Virus record (IMG/VR): IMGVR_UViG_3300006802_000400
Location: 1-28,593 of that record
DNA: 28,593 bases
Reading direction: 5' to 3' (one strand)
Origin: a virus
Shown here piece by piece: positions 414 through 11,374 of this stretch. Position 1 is the first letter of the stretch. Each line of letters starts with the position of its first letter. Below the pieces are notes generated by a model that saw only the letters and a list, made by a program, of their open reading frames with translations, was not told the origin of the DNA and did no database searches. The position numbers were made by a program, and so were the translations under genes.

Positions 414-562
414 AGCGGGGACCGGGTCGACCCCGGCTCGGGCACGTCCCTGTCACGGCTCGGCTGACGCCGGAGGAGCGCGATCGGCTCCTGACCTTCG
501 GGGCCGGGCCGTCGGAAGCGGTGCGGGCGCTGCTCGCGCTTGCCGAGGCCAAGAAGAAGTGA
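410..562 (+). CDS. 50-aa basic protein, ribbon-helix-helix or AT-hook-like
   Basis: GTG at 410 overlaps the preceding stop by four bases (GTGA), and the stop at 560-562 overlaps the GTG of the first methyltransferase in the same way. The 50-residue product starts with a basic GRPR-type AT-hook (RGPGRPRLG). It continues with VTARLTPEERDRLLTFG and then GPSEAVRALLALA, which resembles a ribbon-helix-helix unit: a short strand followed by two helices. Such proteins bind DNA as dimers and often repress their own operon. The role here is inferred from sequence pattern and size; a longer upstream reading of the frame exists but would overlap the previous gene almost completely. Confidence 0.55.
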   Translation: MKRGPGRPRLGHVPVTARLTPEERDRLLTFGAGPSEAVRALLALAEAKKK

Positions 563-648
563 CCATCGGGTCGCTGTTTTCGGGCATCGGCGGGCTGGAG
601 CTTGGCTTGGAGCGCGCCGGGCTTGGGCCGGTTGTGTGGCAATGCGAG
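555..648 (+). repeat. 94-bp direct repeat, copy 1
   Basis: Bases 555-648 match 1349-1442 at 89 of 94 positions (counted by hand). The copies start four bases before the GTG of each methyltransferase and end sharply after residue 30. All five differences are third-position and synonymous, so the first 30 residues of the two proteins are identical. Confidence 0.9.
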
Positions 649-1356
649 CGTGACCCGTTCGCGCGCAGCATTTTGCGCAAGCACTGGCCGGACGTGCCGT
701 GTGTCGAGGACGTCCACGACGTCTGGGCCGAGCCGCTGGAGCGCGCGGAGCTTATCTGCGGCGGATTCCCCTGTCAGGACGTGTCGGCGGCTGGAAGCGG
801 TGCTGGGCTTGCGGGGGCTCGGTCTGGACTCTGGTATGAGTTTTTGCGCGTGGTCGACGTTCACCAGCCCGCCGTGGTCGTCGTCGAGAATGTTACGAGC
901 GGGCAGAAAAGGTGGTTGCCGCATGTCCTCGAAGGGCTCGAAGACCTTGGTTACGTTTGCTGTCCCCTCGTGCTTCCTGCCGGACGAGTCGGCGCTCCGC
1001 ACCTGCGTCGTCGCACCTTCGTCGTTGCCGACACCGACGGCGAGTGTCTACAGCTCGTCAAACAATGGCACGAGGGACGGGGTCACGCCGTATGCGACGA
1101 AGGGGAAGCCTTCGCTGTGGACGAGGGCGAAGCAAGGCACGCTTCCGATGCATCCGCCTGGTCCGCTGGACCCACGTTGGACGGAGTGGGCAATGGGCTT
1201 TCCAGAGGATTGGACCCTGCCGAATACCGGTCAGACCGGTTTCGAGTTTTAGGTAACGCGGTCGTGCCGCAATGCGCAGAAATTATTGGTCGCCTCATCT
1301 TGGCGGCGCGCAGCGCGCGACCGGCCGAGGAGGCCGCCGCGGGTGGGGAGAAGTGA
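559..1356 (+). CDS. DNA (cytosine-5) methyltransferase, first of a tandem pair
   Basis: The 265-aa enzyme transfers a methyl group from S-adenosylmethionine to cytosine C5 in duplex DNA. Visible family motifs are motif I FSGIGGLELGLE (7-18), motif IV GGFPCQDVS with catalytic Cys72, motif VI VENV (109-112), motif VIII LRRR (149-152) and motif X GNAVVP (232-237). GTG 559 is chosen because it overlaps the previous stop (GTGA) and begins exactly where the related second gene begins. The target-recognition part between motifs VIII and X is short, as in many phage enzymes. No restriction endonuclease is adjacent, so an orphan, anti-restriction role is likely. Oddity: over 1022-1252 the +1 frame also carries methyltransferase-like motifs (LPTPTAS, MGFPEDW); see findings. 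The recognition sequence cannot be predicted. Confidence 0.92.
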   Translation: MTIGSLFSGIGGLELGLERAGLGPVVWQCERDPFARSILRKHWPDVPCVEDVHDVWAEPLERAELICGGFPCQDVSAAGSGAGLAGARSGLWYEFLRVVDVHQPAVVVVENVTSGQKRWLPHVLEGLEDLGYVCCPLVLPAGRVGAPHLRRRTFVVADTDGECLQLVKQWHEGRGHAVCDEGEAFAVDEGEARHASDASAWSAGPTLDGVGNGLSRGLDPAEYRSDRFRVLGNAVVPQCAEIIGRLILAARSARPAEEAAAGGEK

Positions 1357-1442
1357 CCATTGGATCGCTGTTTTCGGGCATTGGCGGGCTAGAGCTTGGC
1401 TTGGAGCGCGCCGGGCTTGGTCCGGTTGTGTGGCAATGCGAG
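1349..1442 (+). repeat. 94-bp direct repeat, copy 2
   Basis: This is the second copy of the block at 555-648. It covers the junction between the two methyltransferase genes and the first 30 codons of the second one. Similarity stops abruptly after the shared GCGAG, which points to partial duplication or gene conversion confined to the motif I region. Confidence 0.9.
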
Positions 1443-2105
1443 CCGGATGCTGACGCGCGAGCCGTGCTCTCGTGGCACTGGCATCGCGTGCAGATCTTTC
1501 GAGACGTGCGAGAGCTCGACCGGTATCACGGCGATTGGTGTCGTGGCGGCTGGGATTGCGAGTGCGAAGATCCGATAGAGCCGGTCGACGTAATGTGCGG
1601 TGGCTTCCCGTGTCAGGACCTGTCGAGCGCTAACGTCGTTTGTCGCACCGGCCTTGCTGGCCCCCGCTCAGGGCTGTGGCGCTCGTATCTGGGCGCTATC
1701 GAATACGTCAGACCTTCGTGGGTGGTGGTGGAAAATGTCGGATCAAGCTGGCGAGAATGGGTGCCCGTCGTGCGGCGCGATCTTTGTCGATCGGGATATT
1801 CCAGCGTGCCACTGGCTTTGTCCCCCGCTGAGCTTGGATACCCGCACCACCGTGATCGCGTCTTCGTCGTGGCCTACGCCCACGGCCAAGGCGAACCACT
1901 TCGCGCCGTACATGCGACGATGGCCAGCGTACGCGAGGCTGCAGGACGAGATGGGTCGCGTACCAGGGCATCATGTGCCGAGGCTGTGGCTCGCGCTAAT
2001 GGGCTTCCCGCTGGATTGGCTCGATTGCCTGGCAATGCCGTTGTTCCTGATGTCGCCTTCCACATCGGACGCGGAATCAAACAAGTGATGGACGAAATTT
2101 TGTGA
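1353..2105 (+). CDS. DNA (cytosine-5) methyltransferase, second of a tandem pair
   Basis: The 250-aa product has the same family motifs: FSGIGGLELGLE (7-18), GGFPCQDLS with catalytic Cys87, VENV (126-129), HHRDR (165-169) and GNAVVP (227-232). Its first 30 residues equal those of the upstream enzyme, after which the two diverge strongly. A Cys-rich insertion (DWCRGGWDCECED, about 61-73) precedes motif IV and is absent from the first copy. GTG 1353 overlaps the stop of the first gene (GTGA), and the stop overlaps the ATG of the next gene. The divergent recognition region implies a different target site, so the pair may block several host restriction enzymes. As in gene one, the +1 frame between motifs VIII and X holds WPTPTA and MGFPLDW. 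Confidence 0.92.
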   Translation: MTIGSLFSGIGGLELGLERAGLGPVVWQCEPDADARAVLSWHWHRVQIFRDVRELDRYHGDWCRGGWDCECEDPIEPVDVMCGGFPCQDLSSANVVCRTGLAGPRSGLWRSYLGAIEYVRPSWVVVENVGSSWREWVPVVRRDLCRSGYSSVPLALSPAELGYPHHRDRVFVVAYAHGQGEPLRAVHATMASVREAAGRDGSRTRASCAEAVARANGLPAGLARLPGNAVVPDVAFHIGRGIKQVMDEIL

Positions 2106-2768: not shown

Positions 2769-3580
2769 GCCGCACGAAATCGCACGTCCTGCGCGAGACC
2801 GATGGCGTGCTGTCGGTCTCGCTGTGCGGGATGGTCGGCGTGCGCGGCACCGAGGGCGAGCCGACGTGCGCGCTCTGCCGGCGCGAGCTCGACCGCCTGG
2901 GCGCGCTCGGCGTGGCGCCCGACGAGGTGCCGCGCGTCGTGCCGGAGGCCGGGCAAGGCACGCGATGGGATGCGTCGCTCGAAGCTATCGCGACCGCGCC
3001 GACGCCGGGACGCGTGGCGCACCGCTACCGGTGGGCGACCGTCTCGGAGGCCCTCGAGCTCTGGGCGCGCGTGCGCGTCGATGGGTACGGCGCGAAAAGC
3101 CTGCACGCCGTCACCGAGGCACTCGGTCGCGACGGCGTGCGAGTCGATGGGGGCGCGCCTGGTGACCCGCAGGCGACGCGGCAAGCGGAGGACTGCGCCG
3201 CCGTCGAGGCGTGCCTCCGGCACGTCTTCGAGCGTGTCGCGTGGGAAGGGCTCCTCGACGCGCGCCAGGCTTTCGCGGCGACGATGGCGCGGTGGGTTGC
3301 CTTCGATTGGGCCGACGTACGCGTGCGCCGCGACGTGAGGCGCGAGCCGGTGCAGCTCACGCCGGAGGCTATCGCCGAGCAGCTCGCGGTGCCCGACGTG
3401 ACGGCGCGAGTCGTGCGACGCACGACCGACCGCGCGATGCGCTATCTGCGCGTCGAGATGGTCGCACGCGAGCTCGTGAAGCCGCGCCGTCGTCCCGCGT
3501 CTGGTGCGTCTGCCGCATATCTGGCAGAATGCGCGGCGATTGAGGCGCGACGGGTCGCGCTGGCGAAGGGGGCAGGATGA
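2765..3580 (+). CDS. protein of unknown function with Cys knuckle and HTH-like C-terminus
   Basis: GTG 2765 overlaps the previous stop (GTGA) and gives 271 aa. Near the N-terminus, GVRGTEGEPTCALCRREL contains one CxxC pair, possibly half of a metal site. The middle is Arg/Ala-rich and largely helical. Near the C-terminus, LTPEAIAEQLAVPDVTARVV then TTDRAMRYLRVEM reads like a helix-turn-helix followed by a basic helix, as in sigma-like or replication-initiator regulators. I do not recognise the family. Its place between the possible small terminase and a small HTH protein suggests DNA binding, perhaps late gene control or packaging. The C-terminus overlaps the next ATG by four bases. Confidence 0.6.
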   Translation: MSRTKSHVLRETDGVLSVSLCGMVGVRGTEGEPTCALCRRELDRLGALGVAPDEVPRVVPEAGQGTRWDASLEAIATAPTPGRVAHRYRWATVSEALELWARVRVDGYGAKSLHAVTEALGRDGVRVDGGAPGDPQATRQAEDCAAVEACLRHVFERVAWEGLLDARQAFAATMARWVAFDWADVRVRRDVRREPVQLTPEAIAEQLAVPDVTARVVRRTTDRAMRYLRVEMVARELVKPRRRPASGASAAYLAECAAIEARRVALAKGAG

Positions 3581-3771
3581 GCGAATACACGACGGTCCCG
3601 AAGGCGGCCGCGCAGCTCGGCATGAGCGCTGATGCGCTGCGGCGATGGATCGACAGCTACCCGACGCTCTGGCCGCGCACGCACCAGCCATATCCCGGCG
3701 CGTCGTGGCGCGTGTCGGTCGCCGACCTTCGCACGCGGCTCGACGCTATCTCGGCGAGGTCGCGGCGATGA
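3577..3771 (+). CDS. 64-aa helix-turn-helix protein, MerR/excisionase-like
   Basis: The ATG overlaps the preceding TGA (ATGA). The product starts TTVPKAAAQLGMSADALRRWI, the standard pattern of the MerR/excisionase/Nu1-type winged helix: a helix, a tight turn at GMS, and a recognition helix ending in RRWI. It then has a wing-like Pro/Trp segment (YPGASWRVS) and a final helix (VADLRTRLDAI). Proteins of this shape act as excisionases, small repressors or, in the Nu1 family, as small terminase DNA-binding domains. With no integrase in view, an excisionase role is unsupported; given the location, a packaging or regulatory role is as likely. Confidence 0.7.
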   Translation: MSEYTTVPKAAAQLGMSADALRRWIDSYPTLWPRTHQPYPGASWRVSVADLRTRLDAISARSRR

Positions 3772-8618: not shown

Positions 8619-10484
8619 ATGGCATCCAAGCGACGCGGAAAGACCGAGCCGACCCGCGCGCTTGCGCCCGTGGTGCCTCTTGCGGCGCGAGCTCCGATGG
8701 GGCGGCAGCTCTTCTCGGCGGCGCCGCGCTATCGCACGCGCACGCGCGTCGCGGGGCTGACACCGGAGCAGCTCTCGGCGGCGCTCGACCGCGCGCGTCT
8801 CGGCGACCTCGAGCAATGGGCCGATATCGTCGAGGTGATGCTGACGCAGGACTCGCACATCCGGTCGGTCACCGACACGCTGCTGCGGTCCATCGCCGGC
8901 TCGGAGCTTCGGTTCACGGCGCCGGACAATGCGACGGACCCTGCGCTCGCGCAGGCCGGCGCGGACTTCTGCGCGCGGTCGCTCCATGATCACTCGTCGC
9001 GCCTCGAGCTCACGCTCTCGAATGTGCTTTACGCCGCGCTCGTCGGGATTTCGATCGCCGAGCATCAGTGGGAGCGCGAAGGGCGCGAGGTGCACTCGGT
9101 CGCGCAGCACTGGGTGCTGACGCGCGACATTCGCGTCGATGATTCGTGGATCCCGCGCGTGCGCACCTACCCGCGCGTCGACGGGTTCCAGCAGGGCTGG
9201 GACTGGCTCTCTCTTGAAGACGAGCCCGCGCGATGGCTCGTGCATGTGCACACCGCGCCAGGGCTTCAGAGCAACGTCGCCGGGCTGCTCATGTCGTGCG
9301 CGTGGCCGTGGCTTTGGAAGCGTTGGGCGACGGTGTTTCAACAGGACGCGTTGGAGCGATTCGGCACGCCGTTCATCTACGGCACGCTTTCGCCGAATGC
9401 GCCGGACGCGGCGCGCGATGCGTTCTTCGAGGGATTGCAGGCGCTCTCGTCGTCACACACGGCGGTGATCGAGCAGGAGCAAGCGATCAACATCGTCGAG
9501 AGCACGAGCAACCCCGGTCAGACTTACGGCGACGCGATCGACCGCTTCAACGCAGAAATCTCGAAGGCCATTCTCGGCTCGACGCTGAACGTCGAGGTGG
9601 GCGACACGGGCGGCAATCGCGCGCTCGGCGAGTCACAGAACGAGACGACGATTCTCCCGCGCTTGCGCGCCATCGCCGCGAGCGCAGAGACCGCGATTCG
9701 TGCGACGTGGCTCCAGCCGCTGCTCGCATTCAATGCAGCATCTTTCGGCGGTCGCGTGCCGCCGACGCCGCACGTCGAGTTCGTCCTCGCGACCGAGACG
9801 CCGCCCGTCATCACGCAGCTTCACGTCGACGCGGGCGTGGTGCGGGCGAACGAGCTCCGGCTCTCGGCGGGGCTCGACCCGCTCGACGGCCCCGAGGGCG
9901 AGCGCTTCGTGCAACCGCTTGCGAAGACGCAAGCGCCGTCGTTCTTCTCCGACGACGACGCGACCATCGACGAGCGCGTCGAGCTCGCCGACGAGGATGG
10001 CTTCATCGCGCCGAAGGGTGCGCGCGAGGAGGCCCAGCGCGGGCTCGACTGGCGGCGTGAGTACGGTCGCGGCGGAACCGAGGTCGGCATCGCCCGCGCT
10101 CGCGACATCGCGCGTGGTGCGCGATTGAGCGCTGACACGATGCGCAGGATGAAGGCGTTCTTCGCGCGGCACGAGAGCACGAGCAAAGGCGGCGAGGGCT
10201 TCTCGCCTGGCGAGCCGGGCTACCCGAGTAACGGCCGCATCGCGTGGGCGCTTTGGGGCGGCGACGCGGGCAAGCGCTGGGCGGAGACGATCGTCGAGCG
10301 GCTCGACCGTCGCGAGACGAGCCGCGTGGAGGGTGGCGACGCCGGCCTCCCTTTAGCCCCGGCCCCGAAGAGGGGTCGGCCGCACCAACTGACGATGGCG
10401 TGGCAGACTTCGCCGACGTCCTCACCCTCGACGACACAGCTCGAGGGTCTGCGGTTCGACGCATCGGACGACCCCGAGCGCTGA
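8619..10484 (+). CDS. DUF935/Mu gp29-like portal protein with an extra C-terminal domain
   Basis: The 621-aa protein forms the dodecameric ring through which DNA enters the head. The N-terminal two-thirds follow the Mu-type portal family: VEVMLTQDSHIRSV, WVLTRDIRV, LEDEPARWLVHVH, RFGTPFIYG, NAEISKAILGSTL and RALGESQNE. Residues about 457-562 form a separate, charged domain with RGLDWRREYGRGGTEVG, ARARDIARG, MRRMKAFFARHE, FSPGEPGYPSNGRIAWALWGG. I recognise this as a small phage domain that often accompanies head-protease or portal genes and whose function is not known. The last 40 residues are Pro/Ser/Thr-rich. The 3' end overlaps a long open stretch belonging to the next gene and holds a possible -1 frameshift site. 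Confidence 0.92.
   Translation: MASKRRGKTEPTRALAPVVPLAARAPMGRQLFSAAPRYRTRTRVAGLTPEQLSAALDRARLGDLEQWADIVEVMLTQDSHIRSVTDTLLRSIAGSELRFTAPDNATDPALAQAGADFCARSLHDHSSRLELTLSNVLYAALVGISIAEHQWEREGREVHSVAQHWVLTRDIRVDDSWIPRVRTYPRVDGFQQGWDWLSLEDEPARWLVHVHTAPGLQSNVAGLLMSCAWPWLWKRWATVFQQDALERFGTPFIYGTLSPNAPDAARDAFFEGLQALSSSHTAVIEQEQAINIVESTSNPGQTYGDAIDRFNAEISKAILGSTLNVEVGDTGGNRALGESQNETTILPRLRAIAASAETAIRATWLQPLLAFNAASFGGRVPPTPHVEFVLATETPPVITQLHVDAGVVRANELRLSAGLDPLDGPEGERFVQPLAKTQAPSFFSDDDATIDERVELADEDGFIAPKGAREEAQRGLDWRREYGRGGTEVGIARARDIARGARLSADTMRRMKAFFARHESTSKGGEGFSPGEPGYPSNGRIAWALWGGDAGKRWAETIVERLDRRETSRVEGGDAGLPLAPAPKRGRPHQLTMAWQTSPTSSPSTTQLEGLRFDASDDPER
10349..10379 (+). promoter_or_regulatory. candidate -1 ribosomal frameshift site near the portal 3' end
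   Basis: In the portal frame the bases read C CCT TTA (10349-10355), a canonical X-XXY-YYZ slippery heptamer containing a rare TTA leucine codon. A GC-rich hairpin follows: CCGGCCCC (10359-10366) with GGGGTCGG (10372-10379), one G-U pair, loop GAAGA. A -1 slip would enter the frame of the gpF-like gene, which is open from here to 11374. By rough count, a heptamer of this class has about a one-in-four chance of occurring somewhere in the overlap, so this is a hypothesis. Confidence 0.35.
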
Positions 10485-10513
10485 CGCTACGCGCCGCGCA
10501 GGAGGCGTCAGCG

Positions 10514-11374
10514 GTGGTGCTAGGGCGTCTGCCCGACCTCGCCGCTGCGCTGCGCACCGCGCGCGACGAGAGCGAAGCGATTGCGTCTTTGAAAGACTGG
10601 GCGAGCAAAGCCATCGAGGGCGACCACGCGCTCGTCTCGACGCTCTGGCGCGCGGACATGCAAAGCCACATGGCCGGGCAGCTCTTCGTGCGAGACGTCG
10701 AGTTCGGGGCGCGAAAGGTCGCGCTCGCGCCGGACATCTACGATCGAGCATTCCTCGAGCTCGGCTTCGCCGAAGCGCTGGATTACTTCGAGTCTCGCGA
10801 GCTGATGAGCCCCGAGGCATTCCGGGCTCTGCTCGACGACGAGCGCGTGCGCGCATGGTCGCTCTCGCGCGGCATCTCCGAGACGGTGGTGCGCGATGCG
10901 GCCGAGCGTATCCGCAAAGCGATGGCCGGCGACGGGTCGCAGATGAGCGACTTCATCGAGCAGCTCTCGTCGGGCGTCGACGCTGAGGGCTACCCGGGCG
11001 GCGTGCGTCGATACCTCGAGATGGCCTTCCGCACGACGAACGCGACCTCGTACAACGCGGGCCGCATGACGCAGCAGAGCGACCCGGTGGTCGCGGAGGC
11101 ATTCGCCGAAGGCGGCTGGATGTATTTGACCGCCGATGACAACCGCGTCCGCGACACGCACGCGCCGCTGAACCTCAAACAGTGGCGATACTCCGACCCT
11201 GAAGCGCGACGGGCTTATCCGCCCAACGGCTATCAATGCCGATGCGTCGCGATCCTCGTCGACGCTGACGAGCTCGACCCGGCGCAGCTTTCGAGGCGCG
11301 TGGATGTCGGGGCGGCGATCACGCCGGGGTTCGCCAAGAGCCCGATGCAGACCATTCGAGAAGAGGCCGACTAA
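10514..11374 (+). CDS. Mu gpF-like minor head (head morphogenesis) protein
   Basis: GTG 10514 is chosen because AGGAGG (10500-10505) precedes it by eight bases; the frame is open further upstream, with a GTG at 10400 inside the portal gene. The 286-aa product ends with the family signature: SYNAGRMTQQ, then TADDNRVRDTHAPLNLKQW, and PPNGYQCRC, the Cys pair usual in SPP1 gp7/Mu gpF-like proteins. These proteins bind the portal in a few copies and help ejection or head assembly. The first about 75 residues resemble the helical C-terminal part that Mu-type portals normally carry, suggesting that the gene boundary has moved or that the two products can be fused. Confidence 0.85.
   Translation: MVLGRLPDLAAALRTARDESEAIASLKDWASKAIEGDHALVSTLWRADMQSHMAGQLFVRDVEFGARKVALAPDIYDRAFLELGFAEALDYFESRELMSPEAFRALLDDERVRAWSLSRGISETVVRDAAERIRKAMAGDGSQMSDFIEQLSSGVDAEGYPGGVRRYLEMAFRTTNATSYNAGRMTQQSDPVVAEAFAEGGWMYLTADDNRVRDTHAPLNLKQWRYSDPEARRAYPPNGYQCRCVAILVDADELDPAQLSRRVDVGAAITPGFAKSPMQTIREEAD

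Follow-up and report, generated by a model that had tools for sequence, protein, structure and literature searches.

We found that each of the two C5-methyltransferase genes lying in tandem at the left end of a viral DNA is very probably a nested two-subunit C5-methyltransferase, with a catalytic alpha chain and a beta chain that is begun inside alpha, is read in its +1 frame and carries the recognition region together with motif IX. The DNA is taken from the virus record IMGVR_UViG_3300006802_000400 (IMG/VR, positions 1-28,593), and the whole stretch analysed, 28,593 nt long and hereafter called the window, also contains tailed-phage genes (terminase, portal, head and neck). The methyltransferase features described here all lie on the plus strand. 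The first gene, alpha1 (559..1356, GTG start), is assigned as a catalytic subunit from its PF00145 match, its AlphaFold2 model and an alignment with M.HhaI, and consists of motifs I-VIII, a poorly conserved spacer and motif X (GNAVVP, 1252..1269). The +1-frame ORF within it, beta1 (602..1252), is supported by its open frame, tblastn matches, candidate starts and the selection pattern in relatives. Within beta1, the variable, putative target-recognition region begins with SLPTPTAS (1022..1045), which lies over alpha VVADTDGE (1021-1044); motif IX, LDPRWTEWAMGFPEDW, occupies 1166..1213, with MGFPEDW at 1193-1213; and the stop codon TAG (1250..1252) contributes its G as the first base of the GGT that opens alpha1 GNAVVP. 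The second gene, alpha2 (1353..2105; PF00145, E 1.2e-26; 44% identity to alpha1), has a GTG start overlapping the alpha1 stop and contains beta2 (1600..2088), a +1-frame ORF recognised by its open frame and the profile, with a BLASTP match to beta1 at E 1e-5 and an earliest possible start at GTG 1600. Beta2 has SWPTPTAK at 1867..1890 and MGFPLDW of motif IX at 1999..2019, and motif X of alpha2 (GNAVVP) follows at 2031..2048. The C5-methyltransferase motif set is not all in one frame: motifs I-VIII and X are in alpha and motif IX is in +1.

The +1-frame observation, which an earlier note on this DNA had made for the first methyltransferase, is real and was confirmed, with SLPTPTAS, MGFPEDW and the TAG at the coordinates given above; the same second motif set is present in the same phase in the second methyltransferase, where that note had not seen it. 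The base composition that it had counted by hand also held: for G+C by codon position, 72/51/62 had been claimed for alpha and we computed 73.7/51.3/61.8 (1021-1248), within 2 points, while 51/62/72 had been claimed for +1 and we computed 51.3/61.8/72.4 (1022-1249); the upstream third-position G+C, given as roughly 80%, was 78.9% (559-830) or 74.7% (559-1020). The extent of 1022-1252 that had been reported for the feature was right as to the motifs and too short at its start, as the +1 constraint in relatives begins well upstream of motif VIII, and conservation of beta1 with the related locus L002 begins at about 830. The note had also proposed that phage C5-methyltransferases possess two types of C-terminal region; these turned out to be two frames of one kind of gene, the alpha consensus DGVPxRVDRL and the beta consensus MGFPxGWTxL being read from identical bases.

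Alpha1 matched PF00145 (DNA_methylase) over amino acids 1-159 only, that is, over motifs I-VIII (E 1.6e-38), and matched phrog_363 in PHROGs (E 2.9e-64). Its AlphaFold2 model had a mean pLDDT of 81; 11 of the 16 leading ten-residue blocks scored above 90, the spacer (residues 171-230) scored 42-60, and residues 231-250, which comprise motif X and what comes after it, scored 84-93. Residues 1-256 of the model aligned with residues 12-327 of M.HhaI (VIA-align; Z 22.0, 214 residues, 2.6 A), so that the catalytic fold is shared, although M.HhaI is one chain. On this model, alpha resembles an entire catalytic domain that lacks the small domain.

Motif IX of single-chain relatives, RRLTPTECERLQGFPDGWT, aligned with the beta consensus GxLNPxxxEWLMGFPxGWT (hhalign probability 92.6, E 4.5e-7). 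The recognition domain of C5 enzymes sits in the variable part between PTPTA and motif IX, and the variable part of beta would correspond to this domain. PTP-type units recur two to six times in 106 of 210 nested genes, with a median spacing of 35 residues; multispecific phage methyltransferases have tandem recognition units, and by analogy the recurring units suggest an arrangement of this type. The beta variable regions of four loci (L034, L050, L074 and L129) have four to six PTP-type units, and these loci may possibly have multiple specificities. In the window, the variable recognition-type regions of beta1 and beta2 differ, and two specificities are therefore likely. In addition, beta2 contains C-x2-CG...C-x3-C before PTPTA (window 1762-1821; Pfam E 0.09), a pattern also found in L007, L008 and L011, which may represent a zinc ribbon. 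In a tblastn search of phage genomes, beta1 matched a protein of Rctr197k annotated as a conserved hypothetical protein (E 3e-5) and the unannotated +1 frame of a C72C1 gene annotated as a methyltransferase (E 4e-4); the search with beta2 gave a single phage relative (E 0.04). In PHROGs, beta1 matched phrog_1008 weakly (E 0.001), a family matched by BN12 gp63 (E 1.6e-74) and Wile gp74 (E 5.2e-76). No significant Pfam match to beta was found, the beta profile (A1) gave no significant match in PDB (best E 0.19) and the profile of single-chain +1 ORFs (A6) none at E up to 10, neither of which is evidence of a new fold; beta alone was modelled poorly by AlphaFold2 (pLDDT 63, pTM 0.28).

Because synonymous shuffles of the two window genes often stayed open in the +1 frame (43% and 83%) and the real +2 frame was open too, openness alone is little evidence, but the motif and the profile are strong evidence. 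An open +1 path to MGFPxxW was found in 0 of 100 synonymous shuffles of each gene, and the beta profile scored 107 bits for each, versus maxima of 43 and 47 over 40 shuffles, both genes being part of the profile training set. The comparison was extended to relatives drawn from viral contigs and bacterial genomes, with up to 80 loci per scan among the matches listed; profiles A1 and A2 were built from 32 of the 43 nested genes that strict patterns found among 88 (86 loci and the window's two), and the test set comprised 161 distinct genes (L094-L249 and the window's two, duplicates removed), 157 of which were outside the beta-profile training set and four within it (both window genes, together with L207 and L221, duplicates of L038 and L024). 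The +1 frame was open from VIII to X in 149 of the 161 and open to the strict MGFPxxW in 111, whereas +2 was open in 14 and had MGFPxxW in none. Synonymous shuffles that kept the alpha protein and the codon usage were open in +1 in 44% and had the motif in 0.7%, and the beta profile gave a median of 98.8 bits for the real genes versus 20.5 for the shuffles, with 154 of 161 genes beating all 40 of their shuffles. The contrary cases were 50 genes in which the strict +1 pattern of motif IX is absent, 12 not open from VIII to X and seven that failed to beat all shuffles. Free loss of the +1 motifs among relatives, which had been named beforehand as evidence against the second motif set, was not observed. 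Composition or chance as the origin of the +1 motifs was rejected, since synonymous shuffles lose the motifs.

Synonymous sites in relatives were also conserved where beta is expected. At fourfold sites coding the same alpha residue (Gly, Ala, Pro, Thr and Val only) in 51 independent pairs, third-base divergence was 0.48-0.60 up to codon 45, 0.38 at codons 45-60, 0.47-0.48 at 60-90, 0.31 at 90-105, 0.17-0.23 at 105-150 and 0.21 between VIII and IX, and was back to 0.50 after X. In outline, the divergence drops from about 0.47 to 0.15-0.21 where beta lies and is 0.50 again beyond it. In 18 closer pairs, the shares of changes by alpha codon position moved from.22/.15/.63 before codon 75 to.41/.26/.33 between VIII and IX, where alpha position 1, which is beta position 3, was the most variable; this test extended to beta-seeded loci (L250+), and codons for Leu, Ser and Arg also entered its fourfold count. 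Each gene was used once in both tests, which replaced a first test pooling 2357 overlapping, often remote pairs. Between VIII and IX, the better conserved reading over the 18 independent pairs was beta in 10 and alpha in five, with three equal. For example, 11 of 164 residues differ between L310 and L311 in alpha and none in beta; L295 and L304 are identical at 157 of 164 residues in beta and 117 of 164 in alpha (7 versus 47 differences); and L001, the copy of the window, and L002 are identical at 47 of 65 residues in beta and 32 of 65 in alpha (18 versus 33 differences). The five contrary pairs were among the remoter ones, the worst being L191/L255 (alpha 37/87, beta 28/87) and L182/L257 (30/88 and 22/88), and saturation or exchange of recognition regions may be the cause. 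When fourfold constraint, the codon-position shift and pair conservation are taken together, the working protein in the interval from VIII to IX seems to be beta, with alpha as a passenger. As judged from these alignments, the family shows selection on both frames as protein, with the motifs divided between frames and the constraint moving towards beta once VIII is passed, as far as IX. The dual-frame constraint that the earlier note had considered is supported by the shuffles, the constraint at fourfold sites and the codon-position shift in relatives.

The same data bear on two other explanations. Two compensating frameshifts may long ago have put the recognition region out of frame, so that the +1 motifs would be remnants or a result of composition; the present layout would follow from two such frameshifts in a single-chain ancestor, single-chain relatives exist, and alpha is the better conserved reading in the five pairs mentioned above. 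However, fourfold sites are constrained from VIII to IX, changes gather at the third codon position of beta and shuffles lose the motifs, and we regard this explanation as highly improbable. The ancient pair of compensating frameshifts put forward earlier is, by itself, insufficient, because it leaves +1 untranslated, yet +1 shows protein-level selection. Fourfold constraint, taken alone, fits RNA as well as protein, and the extra constraint could reflect RNA structure or regulation and not protein coding; this is scarcely to be expected, however, given that +1 keeps motif IX in 111 of 161 genes and +2 in none, that the codon-position periodicity moves to +1 and that a protein profile picks out loci on which it was not trained.

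It may also be supposed that, at a programmed frameshift near motif VIII, the ribosome passes from alpha I-VIII into the +1 frame, producing an isoform with the recognition region and motif IX and no separate beta, as the earlier note had suggested in naming frameshifted isoforms. The beta frame is indeed open across VIII in nearly all genes, reaching back from VIII to -70 codons in 196 of 198, to -100 in 177 and to -110 in 116, and in Mycobacterium phage Ochi17 alpha is itself split between frames. A shift at VIII, however, predicts no constraint upstream of it, whereas the +1 constraint sets in about 50-65 codons ahead of where VIII ends; starts with a ribosome-binding site in front of them are commoner than expected between -115 and -95 codons from VIII, or about alpha codons 41-61 (108 of 198 genes versus 44.5 in shuffles); and the BN12 and MM1 records annotate an internal start (MM1 ORF14 at alpha codon 50; BN12 gp63 at codon 68 of the annotated alpha). 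Frameshifted isoforms are accordingly disfavoured and seem improbable to us, somewhat less so than the relic and RNA explanations. Starts also cluster between -82 and -66 codons, but there the excess was weak (78 versus 59.5). In the window, the start candidates of beta1 are GTG 701, GTG 800, ATG 836 and ATG 923; no clear ribosome-binding site was seen at those near the expected place, and ATG 923 has AAGG upstream but lies past the beginning of the conserved part of beta. In the nested family, starts are in excess at codons 41-61, yet alpha codons 60-90 are without added constraint, and therefore beta may be loosely constrained in its initial portion, or its start may lie later.

In the nested two-subunit reading that we prefer, alpha, in the annotated frame, would form the AdoMet-binding catalytic domain with motifs I-VIII, followed by a passive linker and by motif X folding back on the domain. 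Beta would be translated from its own start within alpha, overprint roughly motifs V-VIII in the +1 frame of the same DNA and carry the target-recognition region and motif IX. The two chains would bind each other, both would be needed, and the assembled, active methyltransferase would mark phage DNA against host restriction, allowing restriction to be evaded. With two alpha/beta pairs in tandem that have different recognition regions, the phage would probably address different targets.

Using loose patterns, we classified 243 distinct genes among the matches listed, a set from which 10 duplicates and one gene with N were dropped, in which four public phage records were included and in which the window was represented by the copy L001. 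Motif IX was in +1 and motif X in frame 0 in 195; there were also 12 single chains, four genes with IX and X in +1, six nested-like genes, 11 in which IX was in +1 and no X was matched, and 15 without a clear class. A tree of 94 genes was made from a diversity subset with 55 of the 195 nested genes, the six nested-like genes and rows under 130 residues being left out, and its bootstrap had not converged. A 100/99 branch divided it, with 11 single chains, 10 genes of unclear class and four nested genes on one side, and 51 nested genes, 10 with IX in +1, four split, four of unclear class and no single chain on the other. The four nested genes on the single-chain side (L048, L061, L126 and L168) carry IX in the +1 frame with X in frame 0, and because of their position motif IX probably changed frame more than once. 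Misclassification of L048 and L061 was considered and rejected on inspection, both showing this nested arrangement; L061 has a canonical-looking +1 motif IX, VRRLTVIECLRLQGFPDDW. Annotation varied among the public records examined: both genes are annotated in BN12 and MM1, the beta frame alone in Rctr197k and alpha alone in C72C1, vB_MoxS-R1 and 5093; the beta frame is called a methyltransferase in BN12 (gp63) and hypothetical in Rctr197k (_201), and Wile gp75/gp74 is a split version. In Ochi17 (L089), alpha is divided between gp73 and gp74, and the beta frame is unannotated, in +1 of the second part. In L005 (about 2900-3700), an ORF that by eye resembles an HNH endonuclease breaks alpha near VIII, between two copies of SAAALGAPHIRDRVFIVA, an interruption resembling published insertions in phage methylases.

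Single-chain genes had been meant as a negative control. Constraint was found in them at codons 90-150 (six pairs) and was confirmed with more genes, so that single-chain relatives are no clean negative; a doubt about MM1 ORF14 was dropped when +1 selection was confirmed in more single-chain genes. In 52 MM1-like genes, +1 was open from -105 to -2 in all 52 (0.2 expected from shuffles) and +2 in none, and fourfold divergence (23 pairs) was 0.52 before codon 30, 0.14 at codons 45-60, 0.09-0.23 from there to 150 and 0.47 beyond VIII. Of 27 further single chains, 16 had an open +1 (1.2 expected) and none an open +2. In E. coli dcm, as a single-gene contrast, the +1 frame is closed by stops at codons 151 and 228, the second lying just past the ENV motif at 223. 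In 52 non-redundant single chains with an open +1, the ORF extends beyond VIII into a segment of the SLSDILE..V.EKYFLS type; 40 of these 52 ORFs were aligned, all matching phrog_16143 and 14 matching phrog_1008 too. Complete single chains with a selected +1 ORF over the catalytic motifs to VIII occur in phage MM1 (L327:7480-8634) and at L410-L488. Between the single-chain +1 ORFs and the nested betas, the overprinted parts could be aligned (hhalign 97%, E 1.7e-11), a match part of which must be a shadow of the conserved residues of alpha.

These genes may be placed in a series of frames, in which the MM1-like +1 protein would end after VIII in a conserved SLSDILE..EKYFLS while alpha keeps IX and X, the +1 protein of the window's kind would have the recognition region and IX, and that of the Wile-like kind would have X in addition to IX. 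On this view, the overprinted part of beta, which is conserved also beside a complete alpha, would serve the catalytic domain as a permanent partner. Whether a +1 gene over the catalytic motifs is a general and old property of phage C5-methyltransferases, with parts passing between frames in evolution, we consider an evenly balanced question.

Nested and two-chain methyltransferases have precedents. In M.EcoHK31I (YGGCCR), a two-polypeptide enzyme, the smaller gene is reportedly nested in the larger in another frame, and a nested small-subunit frame is likewise present in the window and the family. The larger polypeptide of M.EcoHK31I has motifs I-VIII and X and the smaller motif IX, as described in PMC3404938, and the reading frames of the window divide the motifs identically, with beta as a predicted protein. 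For that enzyme, the recognition domain was predicted in the larger subunit (PMC3404938). In the window, by contrast, the VIII-X stretch of alpha looks like a linker and the beta frame carries the constraint; a recognition domain in the larger subunit is not what we found, this stretch having the variability of a passenger frame (pooled, with five of 18 pairs contrary) and a low-confidence model. Unlike M.EcoHK31I, the window phage has tandem copies. M.AquI is described as having two subunits, alpha with I-VIII and a smaller one with IX and X (PMC3404938); motif X stays in the alpha frame in the window, which differs in this respect, and the likeness to M.AquI is found in Wile gp75/gp74, L073 and L085. 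In 5093-group phages, two C5-methyltransferases overlap totally in different frames, and MM1 and Tn5252 are cited likewise (PMC5601072); the section describing this overlap gives no motif assignment and no selection test. The likeness to these Streptococcus phages lies in two C5-methyltransferase products from one DNA (MM1 ORF13/ORF14, the second in +1) and, at the family level, in a +1 frame selected within alpha over the last catalytic motifs (V-VIII). They differ in that their alpha forms one complete chain, both IX and X being in frame 0, which is not so for the window alpha, and in that MM1 ORF14 stops soon after VIII and has no motif IX. Because the kind has precedents, the arrangement is not categorically new; what is new is its breadth, the evidence of selection and the series in which motif IX, and then X, is in the overlapping gene. 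A description of a widespread nested recognition subunit in phages was not found in the open-access literature searched, a body that most subscription journals lie outside.

Such genes can be annotated as one protein with a C-terminal half that has no recognisable recognition domain, as with the window alpha, C72C1 and vB_MoxS-R1. If the nested two-subunit reading is true, the C-terminal half of alpha would be a by-product, and specificity would reside in a subunit encoded by the same DNA as a second gene; prediction of specificity would change, and inactive clones of single ORFs could be explained. The family would also provide a large natural set for two proteins evolving on one stretch of DNA, and one could test whether the recognition domain of M.EcoHK31I belongs to its small subunit.

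Elsewhere in the window, the portal-like ORF (8619-10484) and the minor-head-like ORF (10244-11374) share 241 bases, and the listed start of the latter is probably too early.
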